Made by a program: the position numbers and the translations under genes. A stretch of DNA of 52,622 nt from Euzebyales bacterium (GTDB lineage Bacteria > Actinomycetota > Nitriliruptoria > Euzebyales > JAHELV01), in NCBI GenBank assembly GCA_035461305.1, contig DATHVN010000008.1, forward strand, positions 1 through 52,622. Direction: 5' to 3'. Positions within the stretch are counted from its first letter, which is position 1. Each line of letters opens with the position of its first letter. Under the pieces are notes generated by a model. That model saw nothing but the letters and a program-made list of their open reading frames with translations, did no database searches and was not told where the DNA came from. Of the stretch, positions 11,135-11,475 are shown in pieces.

Positions 11135-11202
11135 ACCTCGGTCATGCAGCTACGTGGGACGACCTGGCGAGCCGCGACCGCACACGGGGATAGGGTTGCG
11201 GC

Positions 11203-11475
11203 ATGCTCGATCCGACCCACGCTTTCACCATCGAGTTCTGCGTCCCCTGAAGCTATGTGGAGCGCGCCGCCGGTCTGGCGGCCGAGATCCTCAGCGGCTG
11301 GGCCCCCGTCATCACCGACCTCCGGCTGGTGCCATCGTCAGGCGGACGCTTCGAGGTCACGCTCGACGACGAGGTGATCTTCTCGAAGAAGGCGCTGGGG
11401 CGCCACGCTGCCCCCGGGGAGGTCGTCGGCGAGGTCAGGGCCCGCCTGGGCCCCGAGGTGCTCGAGGAGCGCTAG
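11203..11475 (+). CDS. SelW/SelT/SelH (Rdx) family protein, probable selenoprotein with in-frame TGA
   Basis: A 90-residue thioredoxin-fold redox protein of the Rdx family (SelT/SelW/SelH). Translation from ATG 11203 gives MLDPTHAFTIEFCVP, then TGA at 11248-11250, then SYVERAAGLAAEIL and onward to a TAG at 11473. The TGA sits exactly where the family has its CxxC or CxxU active site, giving Cys13-Val-Pro-Sec16. The rest (VPSSGGRFEVTLDDEVIF, SKKALGRHAAPGEV) is normal for the family. TAG at 11191 in frame leaves ATG 11203 as the only start, with AGGG about 7 bases upstream. A SECIS-like hairpin follows the TGA. A standard gene caller would report only a truncated gene from GTG 11257. The selenocysteine machinery is not in this window, so recoding is inferred. 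Confidence 0.82.
11248..11299 (+). promoter_or_regulatory. Bacterial SECIS-like hairpin next to the in-frame TGA
   Basis: GCCGCC (11266-11271) and GGCGGC (11277-11282) form a 6-bp stem capped by the loop GGTCT (11272-11276). The E. coli fdhF SECIS recalled from the literature has the same GGUCU apical loop, 18 nt after its UGA against 21 nt here. Lower helices GAG/CTC (11260/11290) and AGC/GCT (11251/11297) are possible. This fits SelB recognition immediately 3' of the UGA, inside the coding region. Confidence 0.7.

Follow-up and report, generated by a model that had tools for sequence, protein, structure and literature searches.

Introduction

SelW-like selenoproteins have been described in bacteria since at least 2005 (PMC1088965), and a 2006 survey lists one under the Actinobacteria, for Symbiobacterium (PMC1794560). 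The general biology of SelW selenoproteins is already known, and in the bacterial examples (PMC1088965, PMC1794560) an Rdx domain with a CxxU redox motif is accompanied by a hairpin directly after the UGA codon and by the machinery for selenocysteine (Sec). The gene considered here, which lies in a window of 52,622 nucleotides (the whole stretch of DNA analysed) from a Euzebyales bacterium, shares all of these features. It differs from those systems in nothing essential, its own traits being the C-V-P-U form of the motif and its actinobacterial lineage, and it therefore adds to a known group.

Two further systems serve for comparison. Cys-type relatives of solved structure (3dex, SAV_2001 of Streptomyces avermitilis; 2fa8; 2obk) are alike in sequence and in fold (TM about 0.8), but, to judge from the aligned Cys homologues, would carry Cys in place of Sec and lack a SECIS-like hairpin. 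The SECIS element of Escherichia coli fdhF is likewise a stem-loop after the UGA with the loop word GGUCUG, although the lower stems differ and the GGU starts at +22 in fdhF and at +25 in selW, counting the U of UGA as 1.

The selW-like gene almost certainly encodes a selenoprotein of thioredoxin-like fold, with a Cys-Val-Pro-Sec active site and Sec insertion at codon 16 directed by SelB and a hairpin. Standard annotation would truncate or miss this gene, a reading that is corrected here, and the result assigns both a SelW selenoprotein and the whole selenocysteine pathway to an actinobacterial lineage that has received little study. The features are collected in Table 1.

Table 1. Positions of the selW-like gene and its elements in the window
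Feature	Position	Strand	Description
selW-like gene	11203..11475	+	90 aa, Sec at residue 16, then TAG stop
CxxU redox motif C-V-P-U	11239..11250	+	codons TGC GTC CCC TGA
In-frame UGA, probable Sec codon	11248..11250	+	based on frame, six-frame search and homologue conservation
Predicted bacterial SECIS hairpin	11266..11282	+	stem 11266-11271/11277-11282 (6 bp), apical loop GGUCU 11272-11276

The gene and its product

ATG 11203, TGA 11248, GTG 11257 and TAG 11473 share one frame, whose upstream limit is the in-frame TAG at 11191. Codon 16, the TGA, is the sole stop between the ATG and the final TAG, as the sequence-only reading had described. With this codon read as U, the product is MLDPTHAFTIEFCVPUSYVERAAGLAAEILSGWAPVITDLRLVPSSGGRFEVTLDDEVIFSKKALGRHAAPGEVVGEVRARLGPEVLEER, while a fragment begun at GTG 11257 would measure about 72 aa, with the CxxU motif absent. 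The same reading had placed the TGA at the second redox position of a CxxC/CxxU motif, and the alignment of SelW-like proteins agrees: C13 is invariant and column 16, the position of U in C13-V-P-U16, is always U or C.

The read-through protein matches the Rdx family PF10262 with an E-value of 1.2e-17 (64.3 bits, cut-off 22.6) over profile positions 3-73 of 74, so that a single domain runs across the TGA and the residues after it are, as had been claimed, normal for Rdx. It also passes TIGR02174, the CXXU SelW/T/H model (48.5 vs a cut-off of 34.2), and scores under the cut-off of the Campylobacter-specific model NF041051 (69.6 vs 88). The proposed assignment to a SelW/SelT family holds for its SelW-like part; SelT, like SelH, is a related family and not that of this gene. 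An AlphaFold2 model built on an alignment of 19 relatives (pLDDT 92) has the thioredoxin-like SelW fold, and its nearest PDB structures are the SelW-related bacterial proteins 2fa8, 2obk, 3dex, 2oka, 2p0g (TM 0.76-0.81), followed by mouse SelW 2npb (TM 0.62) and thioredoxins. The sequence search against solved structures agrees (3dex_A, E 1.3e-12).

The genome, a draft assembly in 237 contigs, was searched in six frames, and the selW-like gene was its single Rdx locus. The neighbours in the window are ordinary, comprising a thiolase, a 3-hydroxyacyl-CoA dehydrogenase and an acyl-CoA dehydrogenase on the minus strand, plus a cupin. When the window was scanned for further TGA codons close to a Cys and flanked by open, GC3-rich sequence, four more sites emerged, none of them in a sensible sequence context.

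Conservation of the UGA codon

The SelW frame keeps its TGA in all four genomes of the genus, which are independent assemblies, and the 11 SelW genes detected across the order each have a single TGA at codon 16 and lie in a genome with selA (11/11). In a phylum-wide sample of 396 genomes, the family was found in 55, with 56 matches, of which 39 contain one internal TGA and 17 no stop. Those stop-free copies whose sequence was inspected carry Cys at the UGA column, so that the homologues show Sec/Cys exchange at this position, and none of them shows decay of the whole gene, which the sequence-only reading had named as evidence that would speak against it. Outside the order, selA accompanies the UGA-type gene in 28 of 32 genomes, vs 4 of 15 with a stop-free match (Fisher P 7e-5, a value that ignores kinship); selA may be missing from the other four TGA-type genomes because several genomes are drafts. 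The MAGs behind the named relatives in GTDB contigs bear the labels Nitriliruptorales, Acidimicrobiales or Acidimicrobiia, and Chloroflexi. In relatives, the stretch of 15 codons that leads up to the TGA is preserved at the protein level (MLDPTH...IEFCVP), including the short N-terminal extension MLDPTH.

The SECIS-like hairpin

The bSECIS model asks for a loop of 3-9 nt, a stem of 4-16 bp and a distance of 16-37 nt from the UGA, and also for a G in the first two loop positions (PMC13188914). The selW hairpin, which spans +19 to +35 from the UGA, agrees with this model in every respect, with its 5-nt loop GGUCU, its 6-bp stem and a spacing of 21 nt after the UGA. An Rfam search of the window returned no family at the gathering score. 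Taken by itself, the hairpin has only a slight advantage in stability over synonymous recodings of its own sequence (P about 0.07), and the case for a SECIS element therefore rests on comparison.

This comparison separates the two types of gene. The loop GGU-CU with an intact stem is present in 22 of 27 Sec genes, from several families, whereas the hairpin occurs in none of 14 Cys genes. Conservation of the element, GCCGYC-GGUCU-GRCGG, extends to codon third positions in the Sec forms. All Sec genes that encode Gly here use GGT (22/22), a codon making up 16.5% of the Gly codons in a set of the genome's own genes; no exact probability can be attached to the 22/22 because the Sec sequences are related. 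When the stem partner is slid by one to three columns, paired cells fall from 93.5% to at most 59%. Covariation of the base pairs is limited, with one pair that changes on both sides (U-A, U-G, C-G).

Two Cys-type genes, L052 and L058, come from genomes that keep selA and have a protein context (GYAPRALGL) close to that of the Sec forms; both use GGC, not GGT, for the Gly and lack the stem. Four UGA-type SelW genes (L034, L054, L062 and L063) are without GGUCUG after the UGA and have GCCGTGCGC there instead. These four would need another hairpin, perhaps a second type of SECIS.

The selenocysteine pathway of the genome

The sequence-only reading had pointed to the Sec genes as a check, and family searches located all of them over their cut-offs: selA (465 bits) and selB (332 bits) near each other on contig C141, selD (348 bits) on C186, and a tRNA-Sec gene with anticodon TCA (70 bits) on C157. 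Two further genes of the genome carry an in-frame TGA. In selD (L016 690-692, on C186) it lies within SHGAGUACK, and in the gene for the formate dehydrogenase alpha subunit (L100, C13:3283-5172, minus strand) it lies within SCNRTUHAPSV, positions that we take to be the usual Sec sites of the SelD and formate dehydrogenase families. SelD is thus itself a predicted selenoprotein, and annotation may truncate its gene. Hairpins are also present after the selD UGA, with a loop that does not match GGUCUG, and the hairpin sequence after the formate dehydrogenase UGA shares the GGUCUG word with selW. Together, selA, selB, selD, tRNA-Sec and the UGA-bearing selW, selD and formate dehydrogenase genes indicate that the Sec pathway is complete and that the genome has no fewer than three predicted selenoproteins. 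All four neighbouring genes tested end in TGA, which is hence a normal stop in this genome.

Mechanism and rival explanations

From the perspective of mechanism, SelA and SelD would make Sec-tRNA(Sec), which SelB would bring to the ribosome while binding the hairpin just 3' of the UGA; with SelB at the hairpin, Sec would be inserted at codon 16 instead of termination. The earlier proposal that the TGA encodes selenocysteine is supported by the Sec genes, the homologue column and the SECIS-like hairpin, and it is from these sequence data that we infer the actual insertion at codon 16. The mature protein would most likely act as a thiol/selenol oxidoreductase through a selenenylsulfide in the CxxU motif, its redox role and partners being presumed from knowledge of SelW.

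The TGA could also be the mark of a pseudogene, or a Cys codon corrupted during sequencing or assembly. The draft state of the genome, in 237 contigs, and the single base that separates TGA from a Cys codon are compatible with this, but the codon recurs in independent assemblies (4/4 in the genus, 11/11 in the order, 39/56 matches in the phylum), the remaining frame is open and conserved, and the hairpin is restricted to the TGA forms, which together make decay or error extremely improbable. A true stop, followed by a shorter protein without the redox motif that starts at GTG 11257, deserves equally little credence: this GTG is in frame, so that a gene caller unaware of Sec could pick it, but conservation of the 15 preceding codons as protein would be unexpected if they were untranslated, and the third positions of the hairpin are conserved in a UGA-linked manner.

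It is just as hard to sustain that TGA has come to code for Trp or Cys throughout the genome, or that it is read through without selenium. Under such codes the frame is open by construction, but neighbouring genes end in TGA, the genome holds a complete Sec pathway, and the TGA stands where the family is known to carry Sec.

Evolution of the element

Nearly the same apical hairpin is found in SelW genes of several actinobacterial families, some Chloroflexi and Acidobacteriota, despite the divergence of the proteins. A tentative explanation, somewhat short of an even chance, is that the Sec type of SelW is ancient, or has moved between phyla, that its SelB recognition sequence is shared, and that some Cys forms derive from it by loss of both the UGA and the hairpin. 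Sec forms with the hairpin, as opposed to Cys forms without it, provide a clean comparative case for how a SECIS constraint appears or disappears.

The gene between selA and selB

On C141, a gene for a ClC-type anion channel with CBS and TrkA_C domains (L013 7745-9889) sits between selA and selB. Within the collection of papers searched, none combines selA, selB, a chloride channel and selenocysteine. The product could be a channel for selenium oxyanions, or the gene could simply be a co-transcribed neighbour. selA, the ClC gene and selB each overlap the next by 4 nt. Of 16 further genomes examined from the order, 10 show the same selA-ClC-selB arrangement (L108-L113, L116, L117, L120, L122).
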